Shown here: piece after piece, positions 7,988-62,010 of the stretch
Layout of the letters: every line of letters begins with the position of its first letter
Position numbering within the stretch: position 1 is the stretch's first letter
Assembly (NCBI GenBank): GCA_017415165.1
Contig: JAFQIY010000046.1
Coordinates: 62,001 to 126,000 of the forward strand
Direction of reading: 5' to 3'
Source: Oscillospiraceae bacterium
GTDB lineage: Bacteria > Bacillota > Clostridia > Oscillospirales > Ruminococcaceae
Length of the DNA: 64,000 bases
Translations under genes and position numbers: made by a program
Notes under the pieces: model-generated
Seen by the model: only the letters and a program-made list of their open reading frames with translations
Told to the model about the DNA's origin: nothing
Database searches by the model: none

Positions 7988-8029
7988 ATAAAATTATATC
8001 ATAATTTGTCCGTCAACTCATCCTTAAAA

Positions 8030-8836
8030 TCATTCTCTGCCTGCAATAACGCAGTCGTTGAACAGCTGGTTATAGCGCAGATTTCCCTCAGGAATTACCA
8101 CATATCCCGCACGCATTGAAACCTCAAATTCGTTTCCGCCGAACTTCACGGTTTCGCCGTTGTGAGCAAGAATTTTTTCAGCCGCAGCCTTTGCGTCATC
8201 CTCGCTGTCAAATTCGGTAATCAGCACGAACTCGTCACCGCCTATTCTGATAGGCAGCATACTGTCGTCGGAATATTCGTCGATACGCCGCAGACATTCG
8301 GCAATAGCTATATCGCCTGCCGCTGACCCGAACGTGTCATTTATATACATAAGGTGCACCATATCGAAGCAGATAACGTACCTGCCGCTTCTTGACTTGA
8401 TAAATTCGTAAAGATGTGAAACGTCAAATCTTCTCTTGCTGAACATAATAACAACTCCTTCTTCATCTGTAACGTGAGTCGCTGCGTCCAGTTTCGGGAA
8501 AATCTCGGAGAACTTCCTGTTTCTGCGGAACTTTGACGGGGTAACTCCCCACAGTCTCATAAAAGCACGGGTAAATACCTCGTGGGAATTGTAGCCGTAC
8601 TTCATAGCAATGTCAAGGACAGAGTCATCCGTTTCCACAAGGTCCTTAGCCGCAAGGGAAAGCTTCCTGCGTGAAATATAATCGCTTATTCCGATATGCA
8701 GTGCACAACGGAACATTTTCTGCAGATTTGACAGCGAGTAGCAGCACTTCTCCGCACACAGCTCGGGCGTAACCCCTGCAAGCAGATTTTCCTCAATATA
8801 ACCGAGAGCAACAGACAGCATTTCAAATTTATTCAT
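8030..8836 (-). CDS. AraC-type HTH regulator fused to a GGDEF domain
   Basis: Residues 1-110 form a double-HTH AraC DNA-binding domain (SLSNLQKMFRCALHIGISDY in the first HTH and DIAMKYGYNSHEVFTRAF, then WGVTPSKFRR in the second). Residues 130-268 resemble a diguanylate cyclase domain: ICFDMVHLMYIND supplies the metal and guanine positions, GDIAIAECLRRI follows, and RIGGDEFVLI carries an intact GGDEF. The usual terminal ADxAMYxAK helix is missing, so the domain is slightly short and may bind nucleotide rather than make c-di-GMP. The start could also be 8848; 8836 fits AraC N-termini better. The DNA-binding domain is N-terminal, unlike most AraC proteins. Confidence 0.8.
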   Translation of the reverse strand: MNKFEMLSVALGYIEENLLAGVTPELCAEKCCYSLSNLQKMFRCALHIGISDYISRRKLSLAAKDLVETDDSVLDIAMKYGYNSHEVFTRAFMRLWGVTPSKFRRNRKFSEIFPKLDAATHVTDEEGVVIMFSKRRFDVSHLYEFIKSRSGRYVICFDMVHLMYINDTFGSAAGDIAIAECLRRIDEYSDDSMLPIRIGGDEFVLITEFDSEDDAKAAAEKILAHNGETVKFGGNEFEVSMRAGYVVIPEGNLRYNQLFNDCVIAGRE

Positions 8837-8923
8837 AGCAGCCACCATTAATTCTATTCCGATATCGTAATTATATTTTAGCACGGGTCGCAGAAATTTT
8901 CTTGATGTTTTGAGGAAACAAGC

Positions 8924-9156
8924 AAGGGTATCGGTTTTTGTCCGATACCCTTGAGCCTGTCGATAAAGTCGACAGGCTAATGAATAAAGAATAATGAATA
9001 GTGAATAGTTAAGGTGTCCGCTTTGCGGACATTTTTAATATTATTGCCGAAGGCAATTCCTTAATTATTAATTCTTCATTCTTCATTATTCACTATTCAT
9101 TGTCAAAAAGTCTTTTTTGACAAACTGAAGGGTATCGTTTTTTGTCCGATACCCTT
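8924..9156. mobile_element. MITE-like palindromic repeat, copy A, flanked by duplicated terminator hairpins
   Basis: The core (8953-9127) starts GAGCCTG and ends AAACTG. It has terminal hairpins (AGCCTGTCGA/TCGACAGGCT; TTGTCAAAAA/TTTTTGACAA), outer arms rich in TGAATAATGAATAGTG and its complement, and central hairpins TGTCCGC/GCGGACA and ATTGCC/GGCAAT. It has no coding capacity. On both sides lies the same 29-bp terminator hairpin AAGGGTATCG...CGATACCCTT (8924-8952 and 9128-9156, one mismatch). The right one is the natural terminator of the SGNH hydrolase gene. Confidence 0.75.
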
Positions 9157-9162
9157 TTATAC

Positions 9163-9921
9163 TCAAAAATAATTGTTGCGGATTTCCTTTGCTACATATG
9201 CGCCCTGGAGATTTTGTCCGTTCTGCTTCGGGTGAAGTCCGTCTGCAAGATATCTTCCTTCGCCGCCGATAACCTCGAACTTTTCGCAGATACCGCAGTT
9301 GTGGTAGCAGTCGATAACCTGTGCGCCCATTGCACCTGCAACCTTTTTCAATACTGTTTCAATCTGAATTTCAGTCTTGCGGTTATGCTCAGGATTTGCT
9401 GTCTGGAGCGGAGTCAGCACGAACACTCTTGCGTCAGGGAATTCCTCCATAATTCTCTGCAAGCACCAACGCATTGCACCCGCTTCGTTGAACAGGTCAA
9501 CTTCTTCAAGTGTCTTTTCCCTGAGTGCAGTTTCAGCATCGCCAAGGTGATTGATGTCGTCATTTGTACCCATTGCAAAAGCAAAGATATCAGGCTTTGG
9601 CGCAACACCGTTCTTTATATCTGAAATGTAACGCTGAATATGTACAACAGCACAGTTATTTGCACACTTCTGAAGCTCAACAAGGTCATCTGTAGGCTCC
9701 CAGCCGTCACTTATTCCTGCGAAATTCGGGTCATCATAATTCTGAGTTGTAACTGTCTTTCCGTCAGTTGAAGTAAGAATACGCTTGTACCACACCGCAC
9801 TTCCTACCGCAACATTGTGGCGTGAAGCCATTCCAAGCTTATCTGCAACATAGCGTGACCACTGATCCCAGGCGGTAATGCTGTCGCCGTCGACGCCGAA
9901 ATTGATTTTTGAAAAGTCCAT
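9163..9921 (-). CDS. SGNH/GDSL-family hydrolase
   Basis: This 252-residue protein has SGNH blocks in order: GDS with catalytic Ser14 (block I), a block II glycine region, AMGTND (block III, Asn) and DGLHP near residues 226-230 with the Asp/His pair (block V). Such enzymes are esterases, lipases or acetyl-carbohydrate esterases. There is no signal peptide, so it acts in the cytoplasm, possibly on deacetylation of imported oligosaccharides (inference). GGGAGA precedes the ATG, and the gene is monocistronic with its own promoter (9957-9985). Confidence 0.85.
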   Translation of the reverse strand: MDFSKINFGVDGDSITAWDQWSRYVADKLGMASRHNVAVGSAVWYKRILTSTDGKTVTTQNYDDPNFAGISDGWEPTDDLVELQKCANNCAVVHIQRYISDIKNGVAPKPDIFAFAMGTNDDINHLGDAETALREKTLEEVDLFNEAGAMRWCLQRIMEEFPDARVFVLTPLQTANPEHNRKTEIQIETVLKKVAGAMGAQVIDCYHNCGICEKFEVIGGEGRYLADGLHPKQNGQNLQGAYVAKEIRNNYF

Positions 9922-9956
9922 AGCAATCTCCCTTTACATAAAATAAAACTGAATAA

Positions 9957-9985
9957 ATTATACCACTTTGGGAAAGCTAAATCAA
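9957..9985 (-). promoter_or_regulatory. Promoter of the SGNH hydrolase
   Basis: On the minus strand TTGATT (9985-9980) and TATAAT (9962-9957) are separated by 17 bp. Confidence 0.75.
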
Positions 9986-9988
9986 TAG

Positions 9989-10351
9989 TTATTTTGAAAT
10001 ATCAAAGCCTTTTTCGTCCATAACTAGCGGCAGTCTTTCTATAACTCTTTTAACAACGCTTATTCGCCACGGCGTTTCCATAAAGCATATGAGATAATCA
10101 ATTTTCTTCCACGAACCCTGAATTTCAGCCTGCACATCACCGTTTTCAAGGTTTCTGCACCAACCCGTCAGACCGAGTCTTTTCGCCATTTCGCTCATTT
10201 CCAAACGAAAGCCGACCTTCTGGACACGTCCCGAAAAGGTGCAGCGTAAGCGTACTGTTTCGCTTTTGGGAAACTTGGGAAGCTTTGTTTTTCTGACCTG
10301 ATTTATAACGTAATTGTCACGGATTTTTTTGAGTGTTTTTATTATGGGCAT
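9989..10351 (-). CDS. Acylphosphatase-like protein
   Basis: The C-terminal 85 residues match acylphosphatase: FSGRVQKVGFR (catalytic Arg) followed by LGLTGWCRN (catalytic Asn), then NGDVQAEIQG. The enzyme hydrolyses carboxyl-phosphate bonds of small acyl phosphates. An extra basic N-terminal stretch of about 35 residues is unusual for the roughly 90-residue family and may be an annexed segment or a start chosen too early. GGGGGAAAGGAA stands before the ATG. The gene overlaps the upstream one by 35 bp and is probably translationally coupled. Confidence 0.8.
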   Translation of the reverse strand: MPIIKTLKKIRDNYVINQVRKTKLPKFPKSETVRLRCTFSGRVQKVGFRLEMSEMAKRLGLTGWCRNLENGDVQAEIQGSWKKIDYLICFMETPWRISVVKRVIERLPLVMDEKGFDISK

Positions 10352-10742
10352 TTCCTTTCCCCCAGTATTTCAGATTATCTTTTATATTATCCCATACAGG
10401 AATTGGCTCATAGTCAAGGCTTAAAAGGTATTCGTCCAGCATTTCAAAAAATATCCAAAATGCCTTTTCCTCATCGTGCTCGGTTTCAAGTATTAGAGTG
10501 AACCAACCTTTTGCGGTTTGAGTTTCCCCGAGATATTTCATTGCTACAAATTCTTGCAGACCTTCGGGCAATATGTTGTGTTCTGACAAATTTGCAGCAC
10601 TGACTGCACAATCATAGCCGTGTACCCAATGAACAAAGCGTGATAATTCGACTCTGCCGAGATATGCCCCGGGACGTCCTTTCAAGTGCGACAGCAATTC
10701 TCTTTCACAGGGAGAAATGTCACTTGGTTTTGGGGTTATCAT
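10317..10742 (-). CDS. Hypothetical protein, 141 aa, coupled to acylphosphatase
   Basis: The ATG at 10742 is chosen for its perfect GGAGG 7 nt upstream. The protein is soluble with conserved-looking stretches LLSHLKGRPGAYLGRVELSR and EKAFWIFFEMLDEYL, suggesting an alpha-beta fold. I do not recognise the family. Its 3' end overlaps the acylphosphatase gene by 35 bp. The two share the promoter at 10835-10863. Confidence 0.65.
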   Translation of the reverse strand: MITPKPSDISPCERELLSHLKGRPGAYLGRVELSRFVHWVHGYDCAVSAANLSEHNILPEGLQEFVAMKYLGETQTAKGWFTLILETEHDEEKAFWIFFEMLDEYLLSLDYEPIPVWDNIKDNLKYWGKGNAHNKNTQKNP

Positions 10743-10834
10743 AGAAGTTCCTCCATTAGCTGTATACATCATTTTTGCAATTTCCATTTTCAAATCTTTC
10801 ATATTTTGCATTTTCAGCCGATTTATATGGTAAT

Positions 10835-10863
10835 ATTATACCACAATTCACCAACAACGTCAA
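10835..10863 (-). promoter_or_regulatory. Promoter of the 10742-9989 operon
   Basis: On the minus strand TTGACG (10863-10858) and TATAAT (10840-10835) are separated by 17 bp, leaving a leader of about 85 nt. Confidence 0.75.
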
Positions 10864-10922
10864 TCTGTGATTTTCACGTTGCACAAAATGAAAAAAATTA
10901 TCAAAAAGTTGCAGAAAAGGTA

Positions 10923-10951
10923 TTGAAAAATAAGAAAGAATATGCTATGAT
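10923..10951 (+). promoter_or_regulatory. Promoter of guaA
   Basis: TTGAAA (10923-10928) and TATGAT (10946-10951) are separated by 17 bp. No purine riboswitch can be seen in the short leader. Confidence 0.75.
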
Positions 10952-10989
10952 ATTTTCATATTTTTAATTTGAGTAAAGGAGAGTTTACT

Positions 10990-11967
10990 ATGAGTAATGT
11001 AAGACCGGACTCAATGGCTAGAATTACTACACCTGAGCTTGCTGAAAAGTTCATCGAGGAACAGATTGCCGAGGTGCGTGCACAGGTCGGCGACAAGAAG
11101 GTTCTTCTTGCACTTTCAGGCGGCGTTGACAGCTCCGTTGTTGCTGCACTTTTAATCAAGGCTATCGGCAAGCAGCTTGTTTGCGTACACGTTAATCACG
11201 GACTTATGAGAAAGGGCGAAAGCGAACAGGTTATTGAGGTTTTCAGAAACCAGCTTGACGCTAACCTTATCTATATTGACGCTACAGACCGTTTCCTTGA
11301 CCTTCTCGCAGGCGTTTCCGAGCCTGAAAAGAAGCGTAAGATTATCGGCGGCGAATTCATCAAGGTGTTTGACGAAGAAGCAGGTAAACTCGAAGGTATC
11401 TCTTTCCTTGCTCAGGGTACAATCTACCCCGACATTCTCGAAAGCGACGGCGTAAAGGCTCACCACAATGTTGGCGGTCTGCCTGAAGATATGCAGTTTG
11501 AACTTGTTGAACCTGTAAAGCTTCTTTACAAGGATGAGGTTCGTGTTGTGGGCAAGGCACTTGGTCTTCCTGCATCAATGGTTGACCGTCAGCCATTCCC
11601 TGGCCCTGGTCTTGGCGTAAGATGCCTCGGTGCAATCACCCGTGACCGTCTTAATGCTCTCCGTGAAGCTGACGCTATTCTCCGTGAGGAATTCGACAAC
11701 GCAAAGCTCAACGAAACAGTTTGGCAGTATTTCATTGCTGTTCCTGATATGAAGAGCGTTGGCGTTAAGGACAGCAAGCGTTATGAGGGCTGGCCAGCAA
11801 TCATCCGTGCTGTAAATACTACAGACGCTATGAGCGCTACAATTGAGGAAATTCCTTATGAGCTTCTCCACAAGATTACTGCTCGTATTACTGCTGAGGT
11901 TGAAGGCATCAACCGTGTTCTCTACGACCTTACACCGAAGCCGATTGGTACTATTGAGTGGGAATAA
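10990..11967 (+). CDS. guaA: GMP synthase ATP-pyrophosphatase subunit (GuaA without GATase domain)
   Basis: This 325-residue protein contains the PP-loop LALSGGVDSSV (about residues 40-50) of the N-type ATP pyrophosphatases and the C-terminal dimerisation domain (RQPFPGPGLGVRC, KITARITAEVEGINRVLYDLT, ending in KPIGTIEWE). It adenylates XMP and transfers ammonia to make GMP. Bacterial GuaA normally begins with a glutamine amidotransferase domain of about 190 residues, which is absent; the ORF starts just before the ATPase domain after AAAGGAGAG. Either a separate glutaminase subunit exists elsewhere, as in archaea, or it uses free ammonia. purC follows 59 bp downstream. Confidence 0.92.
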   Translation: MSNVRPDSMARITTPELAEKFIEEQIAEVRAQVGDKKVLLALSGGVDSSVVAALLIKAIGKQLVCVHVNHGLMRKGESEQVIEVFRNQLDANLIYIDATDRFLDLLAGVSEPEKKRKIIGGEFIKVFDEEAGKLEGISFLAQGTIYPDILESDGVKAHHNVGGLPEDMQFELVEPVKLLYKDEVRVVGKALGLPASMVDRQPFPGPGLGVRCLGAITRDRLNALREADAILREEFDNAKLNETVWQYFIAVPDMKSVGVKDSKRYEGWPAIIRAVNTTDAMSATIEEIPYELLHKITARITAEVEGINRVLYDLTPKPIGTIEWE

Positions 11968-12026
11968 TCCCCTCGCTGCTTATTACGTTTAGTTTGAATT
12001 CCAATAAATGAAAGGAAGTTATCACT

Positions 12027-12710
12027 ATGGAAAAGATTTACACAGGCAAAACCAAGGACGTTTACAAGCTTGAAAACGGCAATGTAATGCTCAAGTTCAA
12101 GGACGACTGCACAGGTAAGGACGGCGTTTTTGACCCGGGCGAGAATACTGTTGGTCTTACAATTGACGGTATCGGCAAGGCTAACCTCCAGACTTCCGTT
12201 TACTATTTTGAAATGCTCAAGAACGCAGGCATCAAGACTCACTATGTAAGCGCTGATATCGACAACGCTACAATGGAAGTTCTCCCTGCAACTGTTTTCG
12301 GTCACGGTCTTGAAGTTATCTGCCGCCTTGTTGCAACAGGCAGCTTCATCAGAAGATACGGCGAATATATGGAAGACGGCACTGTTATCGACGGCGGTTA
12401 CGTTGAGTGCACATTCAAGAATGACGCTAAGGGTGACCCACTCGTAACAAGCGAAGGTCTTGAAGTTCTCGGCGTTATGAACAAGGCTATGTTCGAAAGT
12501 ATGAAGGAACAGACTCTCAAGATTACAAAGATTGTTGCTGACGACCTCAAGACAATCGGTCTTGACCTCTGGGATATCAAGTTCGAATTCGGTTACAACA
12601 ACGACGAAGTTATCCTCATCGATGAAATTGCTTCCGGTAATATGCGTGTTTACAAGGACGGCAAGATTGTTGACCCTGTTGAGCTCACAAAACTCATCAA
12701 TAACAGATAA
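12027..12710 (+). CDS. purC: Phosphoribosylaminoimidazole-succinocarboxamide synthase
   Basis: This 227-residue protein is SAICAR synthetase, which condenses CAIR with aspartate in purine synthesis. Family features are the N-terminal [16 protein letters not shown] nucleotide-binding strand pair, [16 protein letters not shown] and the metal/ATP site [12 protein letters not shown]. The length is slightly below the usual 235-240. AAAGGAAG precedes the ATG. It lies downstream of guaA on the same strand without an obvious terminator between, so both purine genes probably share a transcript. Confidence 0.95.
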
Positions 12711-12795
12711 GTTCGCTTATCAATAACAGATAAAATTCTTACAATAAAACATCAAGCCGCTTCCGATTTACGGTAATGAGTGTATAGAAACAATT

Positions 12796-12826
12796 AAGGG
12801 TACCGAGCAATAAACTCGGTACCCTT
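12796..12826 (+). terminator. Terminator after purC
   Basis: AAGGGTACCGAG (12796-12807) pairs with CTCGGTACCCTT (12815-12826). It lies inside a wider inverted repeat, AAGCCGCTTCCGA (from 12755) against TCGGAAACGGCTT (from 12864), that ends in a T run. Confidence 0.8.
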
Positions 12827-12881
12827 GATTTGTTGTTGCGGATTGGCAAAGGGGACACCCCTTCGGAAACGGCTTGTTTTT

Positions 12882-14366
12882 TTATTTCATCTTTTTCAGC
12901 TGCTCGTTGAGCCTGTCGATAATGATGTTCATAATTTTAATTCTTGCGTAAAGCTTGCTGTTGGCTTCGATAATATTCCACGGAGCGTCCGCTGTTGAGG
13001 TCTTTGCAATCATCTCGTCAACAGCCTTTTCGTATTCGTCCCACTTCTCACGGTTGCGCCAGTCCTCATCGGTAATCTTCCAGCGCTTTTCAGGGGTATT
13101 CATACGCTCATTGAAGCGTTTCAGCTGCTCATCCTTGTCGATGTGCAGCCAGAATTTCAGCACCACAACGCCCTCTTTTGTAAGCTCCTGCTCGAACTCA
13201 TTTATTTCACGATAAGCCATTGCGCAGCGTTCCTCAGAGGTAAAACCCTCGATACGCTCAACCATTACTCTGCCGTACCACGAACGGTCAAAAATGGTGA
13301 TGTGACCTGTCTTTGGAAGCTTGTTCCAGAAGCGCCAGAGATAGTGACGGTTAAGCTCGTGCTTGTCAGGTGCGGCAATCGGCACAGCCTCATAGCCACG
13401 CGGGTCAAGTGCGTAGGAAATACGCTTGATAGCGCCGCCCTTGCCTGCTGCGTCCCAGCCCTCGAATACCATTATCACAGGCAGCTTCTTTTTGTAGATT
13501 TTGCCGTGAAGCTTGGCAAGCTCCTTGCGTGCCTTTTTCAGCTCGTCATCGTACTTTGTAGGCTGCATTGTCTTGTTTTCAAGGCTTATATCAGCAAGCT
13601 TCGGCTTTGGTGCAAGCTTGAAGATATGTGAGGATTCCTCAATTACAGGTGCGGACTTTTCGGTGTTCACTGCATTGGTAATCTGGCTTACGAGAATGTT
13701 GAACACCTGAAAGCGTGTAAAGCCGCGGTCTGTTGTGTCAATGATTTTCCAGGGACAATGAGGGGTATTAGTCTTTGTCAGCATATCGTCAAACTGCTTG
13801 TAATATGCATCGTAATTCTTGTTGCGCTTCTTATCAAGCTCGGTAACACGCCACTTGGTTGTGCTGTCCTCCTTGAGCTTGAGGAAACGCTTTTTCTGTT
13901 CCTTCTGAGAAATATGCAGGAAAAACTTGATGATAACATAGCCGTCATCGGAAAGCTGACGCTCAAAGGTGTTGACGTACTCAACACGCTGTGCATACTC
14001 GCTGTCGGAGATGCCCTCCTCCATTTTTGCGATTGCAAGCTCCTGATACCAGCTTCTGTCCAGTACAGCAAGGCTGCCCTTCTCAGGAATTTTCTCCCAG
14101 TAACGCTTCATCAGCGGATACCTGCGCTCGGTTTCGGTTGCGGGCATTGTTGAATAGACCTTGAAAAAGCGGGGGTCAAGCATCTTTATCATATCGGCAA
14201 TAAGCGAGCCTTTGCCCGATGCACCCCAGCCCTCCAGCAGAATTATAACAGGAAGCTTCTTGTCACGGATTTTCTGCTGCAATGCAGATAGATTTTTTTC
14301 CAGTTCTTTTGTCAGTTCCTTATAATCAAAGGATTTGTTTTTGTTGGTAAGAGCGTTTTCAAGCAT
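12882..14366 (-). CDS. Two-domain PPK2: polyphosphate:AMP phosphotransferase
   Basis: The 494-residue protein holds two tandem PPK2 domains. The first has Walker A GWGASGKGS (residues 46-54) and lid/Walker B LDRSWYQE; the second has GWDAAGKGGAIKR and FDRSWYGRV. Two-domain PPK2 proteins (class II) phosphorylate AMP to ADP with polyphosphate, while one-domain forms act on NDPs. The start at 14366 follows AAAGGAA; the upstream extension lacks a ribosome binding site and reads through promoter sequence. It is a single-gene unit with a promoter at 14407-14435. Confidence 0.9.
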   Translation of the reverse strand: MLENALTNKNKSFDYKELTKELEKNLSALQQKIRDKKLPVIILLEGWGASGKGSLIADMIKMLDPRFFKVYSTMPATETERRYPLMKRYWEKIPEKGSLAVLDRSWYQELAIAKMEEGISDSEYAQRVEYVNTFERQLSDDGYVIIKFFLHISQKEQKKRFLKLKEDSTTKWRVTELDKKRNKNYDAYYKQFDDMLTKTNTPHCPWKIIDTTDRGFTRFQVFNILVSQITNAVNTEKSAPVIEESSHIFKLAPKPKLADISLENKTMQPTKYDDELKKARKELAKLHGKIYKKKLPVIMVFEGWDAAGKGGAIKRISYALDPRGYEAVPIAAPDKHELNRHYLWRFWNKLPKTGHITIFDRSWYGRVMVERIEGFTSEERCAMAYREINEFEQELTKEGVVVLKFWLHIDKDEQLKRFNERMNTPEKRWKITDEDWRNREKWDEYEKAVDEMIAKTSTADAPWNIIEANSKLYARIKIMNIIIDRLNEQLKKMK

Positions 14367-14406
14367 ATAGCAGCTTCCTTTCGGCGTAAAAAATAGATAC
14401 ATTTTT

Positions 14407-14435
14407 ATTATAACGCATTTTTTCAATATCCGCAA
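14407..14435 (-). promoter_or_regulatory. Promoter of the PPK2 gene
   Basis: On the minus strand TTGCGG (14435-14430) and TATAAT (14412-14407) are separated by 17 bp. Confidence 0.7.
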
Positions 14436-14509
14436 GCGTATATATAAATAAATCTCTGTGGTGCTTTTGCTCAAAATTGACGTAAATGGGGTGTTTTCGT
14501 AATTTTCTA

Positions 14510-14538
14510 TTGCAATTTCAAAAAGTTTGTGGTATAAT
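14510..14538 (+). promoter_or_regulatory. Promoter of the 14600 gene
   Basis: TTGCAA (14510-14515) and TATAAT (14533-14538) are separated by 17 bp. Confidence 0.75.
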
Positions 14539-14599
14539 AATATGCAGTATTTGCACTGTTTAAGTGCAGGATAATTTTAGAAAAAAGAGGTAAATTATT

Positions 14600-15571
14600 A
14601 TGGGATTTCCAATAGTATCACCTGTTATTATTCAGAATCTTAAAGAAAAGCTTGCTCCGCTTACTCCTGATGATTTCTGCGATGTAGTGGTCAGTGCTGC
14701 TGCTGTAGAATATACACCAAAGCTTGAAAATATTGAAATTGCAAAGGCTATCATTTCAGAAAAGGAAACTCTTGCTTATGGTATGATAAATCTCCCTGAT
14801 GATAAGAGCGAGCCGCTTGTTCAGGAAAGCAGAAAGATACTTGCCAAGTGTCCTCCTGCTGCATATTACTGGCAGATGCGTACTCTGTTTATGAGCGTGC
14901 TCCAGAACAGAAGCATCAATATAGAAAAGCGTTTTCTGCTCCTCAACTACGCAGTAAAAACCGCTCAGGGTATGATTGACAACGGTCAGGCTGAGCGTAT
15001 CCCGAAATTTATCGATGAATTCACAAGTGCCGGGGATTATACACCTGTACTTGACTTCTTCAAGCAGGTACGTCCTAATCCCGGATATTCCCTTGCGGAC
15101 GGCATTTCACTTATCAAGTCCCTGAAAAAGCCTAATGCGGCTTACAAAGAGGTTCTCAACACAATTTACAAGAATCTCGGTGTTTCAGGTCCTGAGACCT
15201 TAAAAATGCTCGATATGCCTAAGTATATCACAATGAGAAAGGCTTATTCCGATGCTATGACAAGCGATAAATCAATTGCTATTGAAAATGTTATTATCAA
15301 CTATGTATGGAGATACTGCCTCCCTCTCGCTTCTGTAAAGTTCAACTACTGGGAACACTTTGTATTCTTCTGTTCCCTTTACAATGCTATCAAAATTCTC
15401 TATACCTGCTATATGCCGGGTAAGGAGGACGAGGACTTCGCTAAGGCTATCAGCGCATTTGACGCTGCCCTCAGAATTTCTGACCCTCAGCTTATGCAGA
15501 AGGTTATATTTGCTATGAAAAATGCAGGTCAGAGCAACAACGGTGACCTTGCAGCACTCACTCTCAGCTGA
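14600..15571 (+). CDS. Helical hypothetical protein, 323 aa
   Basis: The ATG follows AGAGG. The predicted protein is almost entirely alpha-helical, in a pattern recalling helical-repeat (TPR/HEAT-like) proteins, with no signal peptide. Conserved-looking stretches include YYWQMRTLFMSVLQNRSINIEKRFLLLNY and the C-terminal YNAIKILYTCYMPG. I do not recognise a family. It lies directly upstream of the MetRS-like gene (74-bp gap, no clear terminator), so the two may be co-transcribed. Confidence 0.75.
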   Translation: MGFPIVSPVIIQNLKEKLAPLTPDDFCDVVVSAAAVEYTPKLENIEIAKAIISEKETLAYGMINLPDDKSEPLVQESRKILAKCPPAAYYWQMRTLFMSVLQNRSINIEKRFLLLNYAVKTAQGMIDNGQAERIPKFIDEFTSAGDYTPVLDFFKQVRPNPGYSLADGISLIKSLKKPNAAYKEVLNTIYKNLGVSGPETLKMLDMPKYITMRKAYSDAMTSDKSIAIENVIINYVWRYCLPLASVKFNYWEHFVFFCSLYNAIKILYTCYMPGKEDEDFAKAISAFDAALRISDPQLMQKVIFAMKNAGQSNNGDLAALTLS

Positions 15572-15645
15572 TTTATTTACACAAGCGGACAAACGATGCT
15601 TCGTATGTTCGCTGTGTTTTTTCACATTTCTGAAAGGAATGATTT

Positions 15646-17688
15646 TTGTTTATGGGCAACAATAATAACAATGAAATGTACAACAAGAAAAGAATTTCAA
15701 GAGATAACCGTCCCGAATTTCCAAAGAGAGCGGTTATTACAGGCGGTATGCCTTACGGTAACAAGAAGCTCCACTTCGGTCACGTTGGCGGTGTATTCGT
15801 TTTTGCGGACGTTTACGCACGTTTTCTCCGTGACAGAATCGGAAGCGAAAATGTAATCTTCGTTTCGGGTACTGACTGCTACGGTTCACCTATTGCAGAA
15901 AGCTACAGAAAGCTTACCGAGGAACAGGGCTACACAGGCACTATCAAGGATTTCGTTACCGAAAACCACGAGGCACAGAAGAAAACCCTCGACGATTTCG
16001 GTATCAGCCTTAACCTTTTCGGTGCGTCAGGTCTTGGCAGAAGTGCTGAAATCCACGACGAGGTTTCCGATTGGTTTATCAGAAAGCTTTATGAGAACGG
16101 TCAGCTTCAGAAGATTTCTACCGCTCAGTTCTACGACGAAAAGGTAGGTACATTCCTCAACGGACGTCAGGTTGTTGGTAAATGTCCTGTTCAGGGATGT
16201 CAGTCCGAAAAGGGCTACGCTGACGAATGTGACCTCGGTCACCAGTATATGCCTCAGGATTTGATTGACCCCAAGAGCACACTTACAGGCGAGACACCTG
16301 TTATGAAGAACGTTGATAACTGGTACTTCAAGCTTACTGACCACTATGATATTCTCCGTGAATATGCGGCTGATATCCGTCAGAAGGAAAATGTAAGAGC
16401 GGTTGTTCACAAGACAATCAGCGAGTTCCTTGAACCGCCTGTTATCTACATTATGAATGATTACAAGGAAAGCTACGAGTCCGTAAAGGATAAGCTTGAA
16501 GCACACGAGCTTGTTGAAGAACCTAAGAAAACTTCCTTCACAATCGTGTTCAAGACCCTTACCGACCGTGAAAAGTCCTGCGAGATTCTTTCAGGTGCAG
16601 GAATTCGTTTCCGTACAGGTAAGACTCTCGTTCCTTTCCGTCTTACAGGTAACATCGAGTGGGGTGCACCTGCTCCTGTTCTCGAAGGTGAAGACCCGCT
16701 GACAATCTGGGTTTGGCCTGAATCCCTCTGGGCACCTATTTCCTTTACTGAAACTTACCTTGAGTCCATCGGACGTGACCGTGAGGACTGGAAGAAGTTC
16801 TGGTGTTCCAAGGACGCACAGGTTTACCAGTTCATCGGTCAGGATAACATCTACTTCTACGGCGTTGCCGAAATGGCAATGTTTATGGCTCTCCAGAAGG
16901 GCGAAAAGCTCAGCTGCACACCTGACGAGGGCGAGCTTCAGATGCCTATTCTCGTGGCTAACCACCACATTCTTTTCCTTGACAAGAAGGCTTCCAGCAG
17001 CGGCAACATCAAGCCTCCTATGGCTGCTGAGCTGCTTGATTACTACACAGCTGAACAGCTCCGTATGCACTTCCTTTCCCTCGGTCTTGGTATGAGAAGT
17101 GTAAGCTTCCAGCCGAAGCCTCTCAATCCGATTGCCAAGCCTGAAGAGGACGATCCGGTTACAACACAGGGCTTCCTCCTCTCCAACGTATTCAACAGAA
17201 TTGTCCGCACCTGCTTCTACGATGCTCAGAAGTATCTTGACGGCAAGATGCCTGTTGGCGAGGTTGACGAAAATATCCTTGCTGACTCTGAAAAGGCTGT
17301 TCTCGAGTACGAACGCTTTATGTATAAGTTTGAGTTCCATCAGGTAACATATGTGCTTGACTCCTATATCAGAAAGGCAAGCAAGTATATGGCTAAGGCA
17401 AAGGCTGAGGCTGACAAGGCTGATGACAACGAGCTGCGCAGAAAGTGGATGATTAACGTGTTCCATATGATTAAGACTGCGGCTGTTCTTCTCCACCCGA
17501 TTGCTCCTGAGGGCACAAAGATGGTGCAGGATTATATGCAGCTTGATGACAGTATGTGGAACTGGGATTACATCTTCGACCCTATGAGCAAGAACATTCT
17601 TGAGGGCAAGGATAACCACGATATCAAGTTCCTTGAACCACGTGTGGACTTCTTCAAGCGTCACGAAAGTCAGTTCGATACAAAGTAA
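15646..17688 (+). CDS. Methionyl-tRNA synthetase-like class I aminoacyl-tRNA synthetase, divergent
   Basis: The 680-residue protein has a class I HIGH motif as HFGH (residues 43-46), a zinc-knuckle region beginning CPVQGC, a WGAPAP strand and GQDNIYFY as in MetRS, and an anticodon-binding helical C-terminus. The KMSKS loop reads KKASSSGN (residues 447-454), so two of the conserved positions are altered. An insertion of about 70 residues (NDYKESYESVKDKLEAHEL...) splits the catalytic core, and the second zinc Cys pair is lost. It may be the cell's MetRS of a divergent type, or a paralogue with another role. TTG at 15646 has the best ribosome binding site spacing; ATG at 15652 is the alternative. 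Confidence 0.8.
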   Translation: MFMGNNNNNEMYNKKRISRDNRPEFPKRAVITGGMPYGNKKLHFGHVGGVFVFADVYARFLRDRIGSENVIFVSGTDCYGSPIAESYRKLTEEQGYTGTIKDFVTENHEAQKKTLDDFGISLNLFGASGLGRSAEIHDEVSDWFIRKLYENGQLQKISTAQFYDEKVGTFLNGRQVVGKCPVQGCQSEKGYADECDLGHQYMPQDLIDPKSTLTGETPVMKNVDNWYFKLTDHYDILREYAADIRQKENVRAVVHKTISEFLEPPVIYIMNDYKESYESVKDKLEAHELVEEPKKTSFTIVFKTLTDREKSCEILSGAGIRFRTGKTLVPFRLTGNIEWGAPAPVLEGEDPLTIWVWPESLWAPISFTETYLESIGRDREDWKKFWCSKDAQVYQFIGQDNIYFYGVAEMAMFMALQKGEKLSCTPDEGELQMPILVANHHILFLDKKASSSGNIKPPMAAELLDYYTAEQLRMHFLSLGLGMRSVSFQPKPLNPIAKPEEDDPVTTQGFLLSNVFNRIVRTCFYDAQKYLDGKMPVGEVDENILADSEKAVLEYERFMYKFEFHQVTYVLDSYIRKASKYMAKAKAEADKADDNELRRKWMINVFHMIKTAAVLLHPIAPEGTKMVQDYMQLDDSMWNWDYIFDPMSKNILEGKDNHDIKFLEPRVDFFKRHESQFDTK

Positions 17689-17693
17689 ATTAT

Positions 17694-17874
17694 AAGGGTA
17701 CCCTTTTAGCCTGTCGATAAACTCGACAGGCTAATGAAAAATGAATAATGAATAGTGAATAGTTAAGGTGTCCGCTTTGCGGACATTTTTAATATTATTG
17801 CCGAAGGCAATACCATAATTATCAATTATCAATTATTCACTATTCCTTGTCGAAAAGACTTTTTCGACAGATTG
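17694..17874. mobile_element. MITE-like palindromic repeat, copy B
   Basis: The core (17708-17874) is homologous to copies A and C. It has terminal hairpins AGCCTGTCGA/TCGACAGGCT and TTGTCGAAAA/TTTTCGACA, the TGAATAATGAATAGTG arm, and the central TGTCCGC/GCGGACA and ATTGCC/GGCAAT hairpins. On its left is a short palindrome AAGGGTACCCTT (17694-17705), perhaps a collapsed terminator hairpin. No matching hairpin is found on the right, so this copy is more decayed. It lies between the MetRS-like gene and a small ORF. Confidence 0.7.
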
Positions 17875-17904
17875 TAATCAACCACATTATCGGGAAGTGA
17901 TTTT

Positions 17905-18150
17905 TTGAACGGCAACAAAATTTTCTTTACATATAACTGTGCTTTGGAAAGCCTTGTGCTGAAAGGTGCGGACAATCAGGTCGTGCCTGTGTTTGACCCT
18001 GCTGAAATTACAGATATACTCAAGGGCTATTCTGACTCAGATGTATCTGTCGAAGTTAAACTCAGCAACCGCAGAAACTATCTGATGGAAATTTCTTCGG
18101 CTGAACCGAAAAAGACTTTGAACATAACACTGACGGAAATTACCGATTAA
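17905..18150 (+). CDS. Small hypothetical protein, TTG start, 81 aa
   Basis: The frame opens with TTG at 17905 after GGAAGTGA. The product is soluble with a beta-rich pattern (VVPVFDPAEITDILKGYSD, NITLTEITD). No family is recognised. It lies 60 bp upstream of the TetR gene on the same strand and may be co-transcribed with it. The non-ATG start and small size keep confidence moderate. Confidence 0.5.
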   Translation: MNGNKIFFTYNCALESLVLKGADNQVVPVFDPAEITDILKGYSDSDVSVEVKLSNRRNYLMEISSAEPKKTLNITLTEITD

Positions 18151-18210
18151 AATGCCTGAGCTATGATTTTCGGACAGCTTCAGTATGTCTGCTGTCGGAA
18201 AGGAGTTACT

Positions 18211-18738
18211 ATGAATAACAGGATTGAAAAAACAAAGCAAAGTATTTCCAATGCTTTTATAGACCTGCGCTCGAAAAAATCCCTTGAAAAAATTACAATA
18301 AAGGAACTTTGCGAGACGGCGCAGATTAACAAATCCACGTTTTACGTTTACTACCGTGATATTTATGATTTATCCGACAAAATTGAGGACGAAATAGTTT
18401 CAGAGGTAATCAGAAGTCTCGACACTACAGGTAAGATACTTGAAAACTCCGCAGAATTAAGCAAAAGTCTTTTTTACGCATATACTGCTCAGACTTCCCT
18501 GATATCGGTTATTTTTTCAGGTATGAGGGCACAGCAGCTTCCTAAAAAAATTGAAGCTGCATTGAGAGAAGCTATTTTCTCCGTTTATCCCGAATACAAG
18601 GACGACATTGATTTCAACGTAAGACTTACCTACAGCATATACGGCGGATTTTACACCTATATGAAATACCGTAACAGCGAAAACAAGGCTGTTGTTGATA
18701 TTATCGGAAAGATGTCCGAAAAGCTTATGGAGCAATAA
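18211..18738 (+). CDS. TetR/AcrR-family transcriptional regulator
   Basis: The 175-residue protein has an N-terminal TetR helix-turn-helix (KQSISNAFIDL, then KITIKELCETAQINKSTFYVYYRDIYDL) and a helical ligand-binding domain. The start at 18211 follows AAAGGAG. It converges on the ABC-2 exporter genes at 19020-21129. A TetR regulator next to a drug or lipid exporter commonly controls it, and the dyad in that operon's promoter (21148-21179) is a candidate target. Ligand unknown. Confidence 0.85.
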   Translation: MNNRIEKTKQSISNAFIDLRSKKSLEKITIKELCETAQINKSTFYVYYRDIYDLSDKIEDEIVSEVIRSLDTTGKILENSAELSKSLFYAYTAQTSLISVIFSGMRAQQLPKKIEAALREAIFSVYPEYKDDIDFNVRLTYSIYGGFYTYMKYRNSENKAVVDIIGKMSEKLMEQ

Positions 18739-18759
18739 TGCAGGATTTGCTAACAAAAG

Positions 18760-19003
18760 AGAGGTCTGAGCCATAATGGTTCAGACCTCTGAGCCTGTCG
18801 ATAAACTCGACAGGCAAATGAAAAAAGAATAATGAATAATGAATAGTGAATAGTTAAGGTGTCCGCTTTGCGGACATTTTTAATACCATTGCCGAAGGCA
18901 ATTCCTTAATTATTCATTCTTCATTATTCAATATTAACTATTCATTGTCGAAAAGTCTTTTTCGACAAACTGAGAGGTCTGAGCCATAATGGTTCAGACC
19001 TCT
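18760..19003. mobile_element. MITE-like palindromic repeat, copy C, flanked by identical terminator hairpins
   Basis: The core (18791-18972) starts GAGCCTG and ends AAACTG exactly as copy A. It is bordered on both sides by an identical 31-bp hairpin with arms AGAGGTCTGA and TCAGACCTCT (18760-18790 and 18973-19003). The hairpin sequence differs from that of copy A, so it belongs to the locus and was duplicated with the insertion. The element lies between convergent genes. Confidence 0.75.
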
Positions 19004-19019
19004 TTGCTGTTAAGCGTTA

Positions 19020-20396
19020 TTATTCTTCTACAGGCTTCTTGCCGCGTTTCTTCATACCTGCGTCAAAGTTTACGGACATTGTAAACAGTTTGTCGGTTGT
19101 GAACACCTTTACCGCAAGGAACATACAAACCACAAAGAATACAATCTGGTACGCAAGACCGCCCCAGAACAGCAGCATATCGCCGTTCATCAGGTTTGTC
19201 AGTGCTGTATATGTGTGCGTAAACGGAATTGCATATGCCATAAGCTTGAGAACTCCGCTCAGCTCATTGATGTCAATAAACATTGTAATAAAGAACGGAA
19301 TGAGAACTGCAATCATAATCGGCATTGTAAGCGTCTGTACGGACTTGATGTCTGTTGCCATTGCGCCGAGGATAAGAGATACTGCAAGACCGATTGCAAG
19401 TGTGAGGAAAAGCTGTACCGCAAAAAGCACATAGCTTACAGGTGTGAGTGTAAGTCCAAGCTCAGCCATTGCCTGAGGGAGAGATGTTACGCTTTCGAGT
19501 GCAGCTGCATCAACAGGAAGATTTGTTGTTTCAAGCACTGTGCTTGCTGTGATTTCCTCAACTGCACCGCCCATCATACCAATCATATAGAATGCAAAGC
19601 CTACAATCATAAACGCTGCATTGAGAAGTGCGGAGATAACTGCCGCAACCATCTTTGCACCAAGCACGCTGAGACGGGAAACAGGTGCGGAAAGAAGTGT
19701 TTCAAGAGTCTTGTCGATTTTTTCTGTAGAGATAGCAGTCATAATCATCTGTGAAGCCATCATAAGCAGGAAGAAAATTGCCATAGGTGCAATCATAGAC
19801 TGCATCATTGTTACCGCTGTAAGCTCCATTACCGAAACCTTGGAAATCTTACCGTTAAGAGTTGTATACTCGATAAGCTCCATCGGCTCACGGATAAGCT
19901 CGATATCTGCTTCTGTAAGTCCGTAGTTTTCAAGGAGAACTTCATCCATACAAACGTCCTGAATAATAGAGATGATATCAGAAGCGGAAATTGTGCTCAT
20001 TGACCCTGCAAGACCGCCGTTCTGCATCTGGCTTACAAACTGAATCTGTGCAGGCTTCTTTTCAACTGTAACGCTGTTGCCGAAGCCCTCAGGGATAATT
20101 ACAACATTCTTTATGTCAAGACGTTCCAGTTCAGCAGCGTAATCATCGCTCTGAATTTCAACAAAATTGATTTCTGTTTCGCCGCTTGCCTGAACAGCAT
20201 CAAGCACTTCATCAGTAAAAGCACTGTTGTCCTTGTTACAAAGAGTGATTGTGGAGGTATCAAAGCCTTCCTCCATAGCGCCGCCCATAATCTGTCCCAT
20301 AACGATGAAAAGAACCATTGTGAAAATCATACCCATCATTGCCTGAAGAGTAATAAGCTCGCGGAGTTCCTTTTTAAGAAGATTACCGAATTTCAC
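19020..20396 (-). CDS. ABC-2 type transporter permease (NatB-like)
   Basis: The 458-residue permease has one N-terminal membrane helix (residues 20-37), a large extracytoplasmic domain (about 45-185), then six predicted helices ending near residue 440. This is the layout of ABC-2/NatB exporters, whose substrates include Na+, peptides and antibiotics. It starts with GTG inside the end of the ATPase gene (14-bp overlap), so the two are translationally coupled. One permease gene with one ATPase is consistent with a homodimeric exporter. Confidence 0.85.
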   Translation of the reverse strand: MKFGNLLKKELRELITLQAMMGMIFTMVLFIVMGQIMGGAMEEGFDTSTITLCNKDNSAFTDEVLDAVQASGETEINFVEIQSDDYAAELERLDIKNVVIIPEGFGNSVTVEKKPAQIQFVSQMQNGGLAGSMSTISASDIISIIQDVCMDEVLLENYGLTEADIELIREPMELIEYTTLNGKISKVSVMELTAVTMMQSMIAPMAIFFLLMMASQMIMTAISTEKIDKTLETLLSAPVSRLSVLGAKMVAAVISALLNAAFMIVGFAFYMIGMMGGAVEEITASTVLETTNLPVDAAALESVTSLPQAMAELGLTLTPVSYVLFAVQLFLTLAIGLAVSLILGAMATDIKSVQTLTMPIMIAVLIPFFITMFIDINELSGVLKLMAYAIPFTHTYTALTNLMNGDMLLFWGGLAYQIVFFVVCMFLAVKVFTTDKLFTMSVNFDAGMKKRGKKPVEE

Positions 20397-61931: not shown

Positions 61932-62010
61932 AATCTGTACCGTCCTTTTTAAATCATATTTAATTAATTATATCATATTTTGTCGGAAAGGTAAAGTAGA
62001 ATGTGATGAT

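Follow-up and report, generated by a model that had tools for sequence, protein, structure and literature searches.

Why would a short repeat lie between two copies of the same terminator hairpin? The question arises from a window of 64,000 nucleotides (the whole stretch of DNA analysed, positions 62,001 to 126,000 of contig JAFQIY010000046.1, assembly GCA_017415165.1) of an Oscillospiraceae bacterium, which holds three copies, A, B and C, of a repeat that resembles a miniature inverted-repeat transposable element (MITE). The window is part of a 133-kb contig in a draft genome, G000, of 2.62 Mb (75 contigs, 93% complete); below, L numbers denote loci and G numbers genomes. Our answer, to which we give a probability of about 0.78, is that the repeat is a non-autonomous MITE derived from those IS1182 elements that target hairpins, inserted in a structure-guided manner at terminator-like hairpins and duplicating the whole hairpin.

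A sequence-only reading of the window had described paired hairpins around copies A and C, and we reproduced its coordinates, borders and identities. In both copies the element runs from GAGCCTG to AAACTG (175 bp and 182 bp, respectively), and the two hairpins that flank it are 28/29 identical around copy A and 31/31 around copy C. The partial left flank described at copy B proved to be a 12-bp palindrome, AAGGGTACCCTT, found on the left side only. Across the three copies the element measures 168–182 bp and has no transposase gene. Its parts are as follows.

8924..8952, no strand: left copy of the copy A target terminator hairpin, 29 bp; 28/29 against the right one, terminator-like on the minus strand.
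8953..9127, plus strand: copy A MITE, 175 bp; left end GAGCCTGTCGA..., right end ...TGACAAACTG.
9128..9156, no strand: right copy of the copy A target terminator hairpin, 29 bp.
17694..17705, no strand: 12-bp palindrome of copy B, a possible remnant of its target hairpin; no right-hand partner.
17707..17874, plus strand: copy B MITE, about 168 bp.
18760..18790, no strand: left copy of the copy C target hairpin, 31 bp; 31/31 against the right one.
18791..18972, plus strand: copy C MITE, 182 bp.
18793..18815, no strand: left-end hairpin of the copy C MITE, GCCTGTCGATAAACTCGACAGGC.
18817..18859, no strand: left AT-rich arm of copy C, inverted repeat with 18904–18946, 81% complementary.
18861..18875, no strand: internal hairpin of copy C, GTCCGCTTTGCGGAC, then a T-rich stretch.
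18889..18901, no strand: internal hairpin of copy C, TTGCCGAAGGCAA.
18904..18946, no strand: right AT-rich arm of copy C, inverted repeat.
18945..18968, no strand: right-end hairpin of copy C, TTGTCGAAAAGTCTTTTTCGACAA.
18973..19003, no strand: right copy of the copy C target hairpin, 31 bp.

Among the target hairpins, a motif scan called a terminator only for the left one of copy A, on the minus strand; the internal hairpin motif GTCCGCTTTGCGGAC was scored as terminator-like in two of the three copies, C being the exception.

In the draft genome we count 46 distinct copies of an element of about 175–200 bp, copies A, B and C among them (52 core-sequence matches plus L079, found via its left end, minus seven pairs of contig-end halves). 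The MITE-like identity first proposed is borne out by this family, which is short and multicopy, has inverted-repeat ends and a target duplication, and lacks a transposase gene. Fifteen of the 53 places lie at contig ends, eight as left parts (including L026) and seven as right halves, and each right half carries a hairpin matching that of one left part. Since pairing halves by their hairpins is circular when hairpins are counted, we give figures with and without the seven pairs. A whole, locus-specific hairpin was found on both sides of 36 of the 46 copies (29/39 without the paired halves), and where ends and flanks could be read on both sides the hairpin was duplicated in 33 of 36 copies (26/29), the classes of element ends, hairpins and empty sites being assigned partly by eye. 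As the flanking hairpins are locus-specific, we rejected the idea that they are part of the element. By score alone, 31 of the 46 real flank pairs (24/39) reached at least 16, above every one of 2070 mismatched flank pairs, among which the best ungapped left/right repeat scored 15 (at least 12 in 19 pairs, 15 in one, at least 18 in none); 29/46 (23/39) reached at least 18. The hairpins of L006, L025, L063, L076 and L079, which score 10–15 and so fall inside the mismatched-pair range, were recognised by eye with indels or loop differences. By either measure the duplication is found in most copies, contrary to the outcome, named with the sequence-only reading, that most others would lack it.

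The pair is missing in ten copies. These are copy B; L028, whose right hairpin is cut short; L068, with a hairpin on the right only; L026, at a contig end and without a hairpin on its visible side; L060, L064, L066 and L077, which have wholly or partly lost the left end (the hairpins of L077 differ between the sides); L065, which has lost both ends; and L078, which is rearranged. Three other copies, L025, L063 and L076, have both hairpins despite a lost left end. As a separate observation, L025, L063, L076, L060, L064 and L066 keep the right end of the MITE and have lost all or part of its left-end hairpin, as if an end palindrome had been deleted.

The repeated unit coincides with the hairpin. 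When the 31 strongest repeats were folded singly, the stem ended within 2 nt of both repeat ends in 25 of them; L003, L004, L011 and L018 have a larger overhang on one side of the stem, and in L014 and L020 an indel limits the ungapped repeat to half of the hairpin. The hairpin-spanning repeats are 22–40 bp long (mean over all 31 repeats, 27), and repeat length correlates with stem span at 0.85, a value that is not independent evidence as the stem was sought within the repeat. DDE transposases join the two 3' ends of the element to opposite target strands, and the gap between the joints gives rise to the duplication, whose length normally varies little, since the span of the enzyme is fixed. 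The duplications here are not of the fixed length of classical DDE insertion sequences, nor is the hairpin removed as in stem-loop replacement of the IS1272 type, most copies keeping it twice. That duplication length varies with the hairpin points to DNA structure as the ruler.

The ends of the MITE led us to the IS1182 family. Its left end, GAGCCTGTCGA, and its right end, reversed, CAGTTTGTCGA, compare with the left ends CAGCCTGTCGA, CAGTCTGTCGA and CAGTTTGTCAA of IS1182 elements, and the reversed right end CAGTTTGTCGAAAAAG compares with the IS ends CAGTTTGTCAAAAAAAC (L228) and CAGCCTGTCGAAAAAG (L220, L223 and L224), the terminal repeats agreeing with those of the family. By scanning genome contigs for the end motif we obtained at least 118 stretches, with the motif often directly behind a hairpin; the exact left-end palindrome had no match in viral contigs. 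In Paenibacillus sp. DMB20 (L176) we found an insertion sequence (IS) of 1.56 kb whose ends read CAGGCTGTCGAAAAAG (left) and TCTCGACAATCTG (right) and which has an identical 34-bp hairpin on either side. Searched as two pieces on either side of a stop, its transposase matches NF033551, PF05598 and PF13751, that is, the IS1182 family, and has the domains DUF772 and DDE_Tnp_1_6. The search for a transposase family with matching ends, suggested with the sequence-only reading, thus led to elements that carry the same whole-hairpin duplications.

Small inserts with this footprint occur in other genomes as well. Among the matches listed, 22 of 121 tested motif places had a direct repeat scoring at least 16 around the insert; the 121 include chance motif matches in unrelated genomes and count palindromic motifs on both strands, and seven further places were too short to test. 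Nineteen of the 22 were accepted as whole hairpins (L196, with a palindrome fraction of 0.71, was counted; L124, L154 and L158 were not). They comprise L176 and 18 inserts of 159–425 bp hosted, among the matches listed, by Flavonifractor, Oscillibacter, Gemmiger, Ruthenibacterium, Christensenella and unnamed Clostridia.

For full-size elements, we found 17 IS copies between two copies of one hairpin: L176, six of the 23 tested loci of the order, four of five copies in G223, and six of eight phage and plasmid loci. Their hosts are genomes of this order, Paenibacillus, an Enterococcus plasmid, a Vibrio plasmid and streptococcal phages. We searched 295 genomes of the order, a sample of a larger group, and 86 had an NF033551 match; this search gave 30 loci, of which 23 were tested for hairpins and L241–L247, being partial, were not. 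The six with whole-hairpin duplications are L220, L221, L222, L226 (which adjoins a stretch of N), L227 and L228. The four in G223 are copies of one IS, the fifth copy being L224; three further stretches from G197 and G059 had no such ends. The phage and plasmid loci come from five of the 17 phage records and three of the 1702 plasmid records that had a match; four streptococcal phages and one plasmid each of Enterococcus faecium and Vibrio penaeicida showed the duplication, and L333 and L338 did not, the latter running across the record start. The E. faecium element is ISEfa7 (L336), with a 23-bp hairpin duplication. Hairpin-targeting IS1182 members such as this one share with the MITE ends that start with CAG, a palindromic target and duplication of the whole hairpin, and differ from the window element in that the latter is only 168–182 bp long and lacks a transposase gene. 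Two further observations concern single loci. The loops of the two L227 hairpins differ by a flip of two bases, the kind of change that loop inversion would produce, and at L222 a third, nearly identical copy of the target hairpin is found some 150 bp beyond the IS and may stem from an earlier insertion that was then lost.

A transposase tree of 30 rows, with labels set before the tree was made, set these elements apart. One branch (support 97/94) separates 17 hairpin-flanked rows, 13 with a duplicated hairpin and four with a different hairpin abutting each end, from 11 others, and two unclassified rows fall in the same group as the 17; L235, L237 and L241–L247 were left out and IS1272 is not in the tree.

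Several findings weigh against our reading. First, at L218, L219, L223 and L224 each end of the IS abuts a different hairpin, which we read as the possible outcome of recombination between copies. Second, 13 of the 23 tested IS1182 loci have no hairpin duplication or are themselves cut short, and ISCaa15, a published IS1182 member, is listed with a 4-bp direct repeat (PMC3196728); hairpin duplication is for both reasons not a property of the whole family. Third, the first base of the left end of the MITE is usually G or T and that of the IS elements is C. Fourth, neither the PF13751 nor the NF033551 profile found an IS1182 transposase in the draft G000, which is 93% complete in 75 contigs. Finally, in L063 and L076 the two hairpins have matching outer stems and differing loops; the hairpins of L063 also show paired changes in the inner stem alongside the loop difference.

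How do these elements compare with known systems? Bacterial MITEs are in general short, AT-rich and multicopy, with inverted-repeat ends and no transposase gene, as here; the duplication differs, being a complete hairpin of 22–40 bp and not a short repeat of fixed length. For IS1182, ISfinder reportedly lists palindromes as targets and direct repeats that vary, so part of the hairpin duplication may already be recorded there. The main text of a MITE review does not contain the terms IS1182 and IS1272 (PMC10969869). According to two reports (PMC4923244, PMC5678879), the staphylococcal elements IS1272 and TnSha1, both of the IS1182 family, target inverted repeats or terminator hairpins without sequence consensus, like the MITE; unlike the MITE, which keeps the hairpin twice, they are described there as deleting or replacing it without duplication. 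Furi et al. describe partial hairpin deletion by TnSha1 (PMC4923244), and Wan et al. report replacement for IS1272, duplication of the whole stem-loop being only a drawn alternative (PMC5678879, Fig. 13, pathway b). Among the open-licence papers listed, work on IS1272 and TnSha1 was all we found on hairpin targets in this family, and we found no report of an observed whole-hairpin duplication by IS1182 elements or MITEs derived from them. Outside the family, ISPpu9, which targets repetitive extragenic palindromic sequences, is described as inserting at palindromes, as the MITE does. Group IIC introns insert beside terminators, again like the MITE. Elements of both kinds use other enzymes, and neither is known to duplicate a whole hairpin.

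How, then, could the hairpin be copied? An IS1182-type DDE transposase, supplied in trans by an element not seen in the draft, would place the MITE beside an intergenic terminator-like hairpin, at its foot. Strand transfer would take place on one strand at one foot of the hairpin and on the other strand at the other foot, so that the stagger is as long as the hairpin, and gap repair would leave a complete hairpin on each side. Mobilisation in trans, this geometry and the recognition of folded DNA, as a cruciform or a single-strand hairpin, are what we infer. The data fit the duplication branch, which a separate group of IS1182 elements would follow together with its MITEs. The sequence-only reading had proposed an insertion that recognises the cruciform or the terminator and copies all of it; copying of the whole hairpin is supported, and an extruded cruciform is one candidate for the recognised form, alongside a single-stranded hairpin and a state linked to transcription.

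The last of these would keep the element and the duplication and place recognition in transcription, through a terminating RNA polymerase, an R-loop or a transiently single-stranded terminator. We consider this unlikely, though it is the rival that fares best. The targets are terminator-like, with a mean of 3.9 A in the six bases before the repeat and 3.8 T in the six bases after it (n = 31). Targets A to E of TnSha1 were confirmed as terminators by RNA-seq by Furi et al. (PMC4923244), and IS1182 is listed, in a large survey, among the families over-represented between convergent genes (PMC9208149). Against recognition through transcription, we observed no clear one-sided bias (T on the right exceeded A on the left in eight of the 31 repeats, the reverse held in 12, and the two were equal in 11), and the duplication tracks the symmetric hairpin, not the T-tract. 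A-rich and T-rich flanks without a side bias are as expected of terminators.

Among the 21 genomes of its genus, the genome of the window is the one that has the left-end pattern (at most one mismatch). In the same-genus relatives G011 and G017, of which 0.74 Mb was examined, flanks of 16 copies were matched and 15 places were read, L077 not being inspected; both flanks aligned at five (L002, L011, L019, L062/L071 and L066) and one flank at ten. The element was absent from all 15 places, and at none of them did we find two copies of one hairpin. A hairpin was present at 14 and none was visible at the L061 place; at the L014 place there is also a second hairpin of another kind, no more than about 80 bp away. 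The hairpin found at the matching place is recognisably the one duplicated in the window genome for copy A, where both relatives have a single one, and for L011, L019, L062/L071 and L066, the last corresponding to the hairpin that survives in the window genome; at the other nine places the hairpin sequence differs and the match is by position only. We thus rejected the possibility, raised with the sequence-only reading, that two hairpins were there before insertion.

A related idea is that the element settled beside a terminator and the second hairpin came later by recombination, conversion or convergent evolution, independently of insertion. The absence of the pair from ten of the 46 copies is in its favour, as is the distribution of differences within pairs, which affect 21 of 228 loop positions and 17 of 762 stem positions (Fisher p about 1e-5), since more divergent loops may mean that exchange or selection acts on the hairpins. 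We nevertheless regard it as very improbable: 20 of 36 pairs are identical (14/29 without the paired halves), the hairpins are locus-specific and both abut the element, the same footprint recurs in other hosts, and element-free places have no duplication. Slightly less probable still is a hairpin-preferring element of the single-strand (HUH Y1, IS200/IS605-like) or RNA-mediated (group IIC intron-like) kind, to which the hairpins near both ends of the MITE and the insertion of group IIC introns beside terminators might point, and which we rejected because such systems are not known to leave a target duplication whereas most copies here have one (a Y1 gene was not searched for), because the autonomous relative with matching ends encodes a DDE transposase of the IS1182 family, and because window positions 8000–20000 gave no Rfam match at the gathering threshold, group IIC intron RNA included.

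Some observations stand apart from these questions. At window positions 18962–18990, the outward-facing right end has a TCGACA hexamer that resembles a promoter together with CATAAT, 17 bases away in the flank, and 17650–19060 contains 13 promoter-like sites against a mean of 4.1 in shuffles. A DNA search with the whole element matched 12 of 41 genomes (G000 included), the others mostly in the region of the AT-rich arms; arms of the type AATGAATAATGAATAGTGAATAG are common to otherwise dissimilar small repeats in relatives of G000. In G021, a different MITE with AT-rich arms lies at terminators with one hairpin arm repeated opposite (L037, L048 and L057), a possible half-hairpin duplication.

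We lean towards a general form of the insertion of this MITE, in which a clade of IS1182 transposases would choose its strand-transfer points by DNA shape, so that the feet of a hairpin, whatever its sequence and length, set the stagger and the whole hairpin is copied. With a complete hairpin kept on each side, insertion would spare the transcription terminator. If true, the space behind genes would offer the element and its MITEs a sequence-independent safe harbour, across Bacillota and beyond. In addition, the duplicated hairpin serves as a marker for such elements in draft genomes, and it suggests pairings for seven pairs of broken contig ends. Since targets of this kind are destroyed by IS1272 and TnSha1, hairpins seem to meet with two outcomes within one family, and natural sites at which the two can be compared are now listed.

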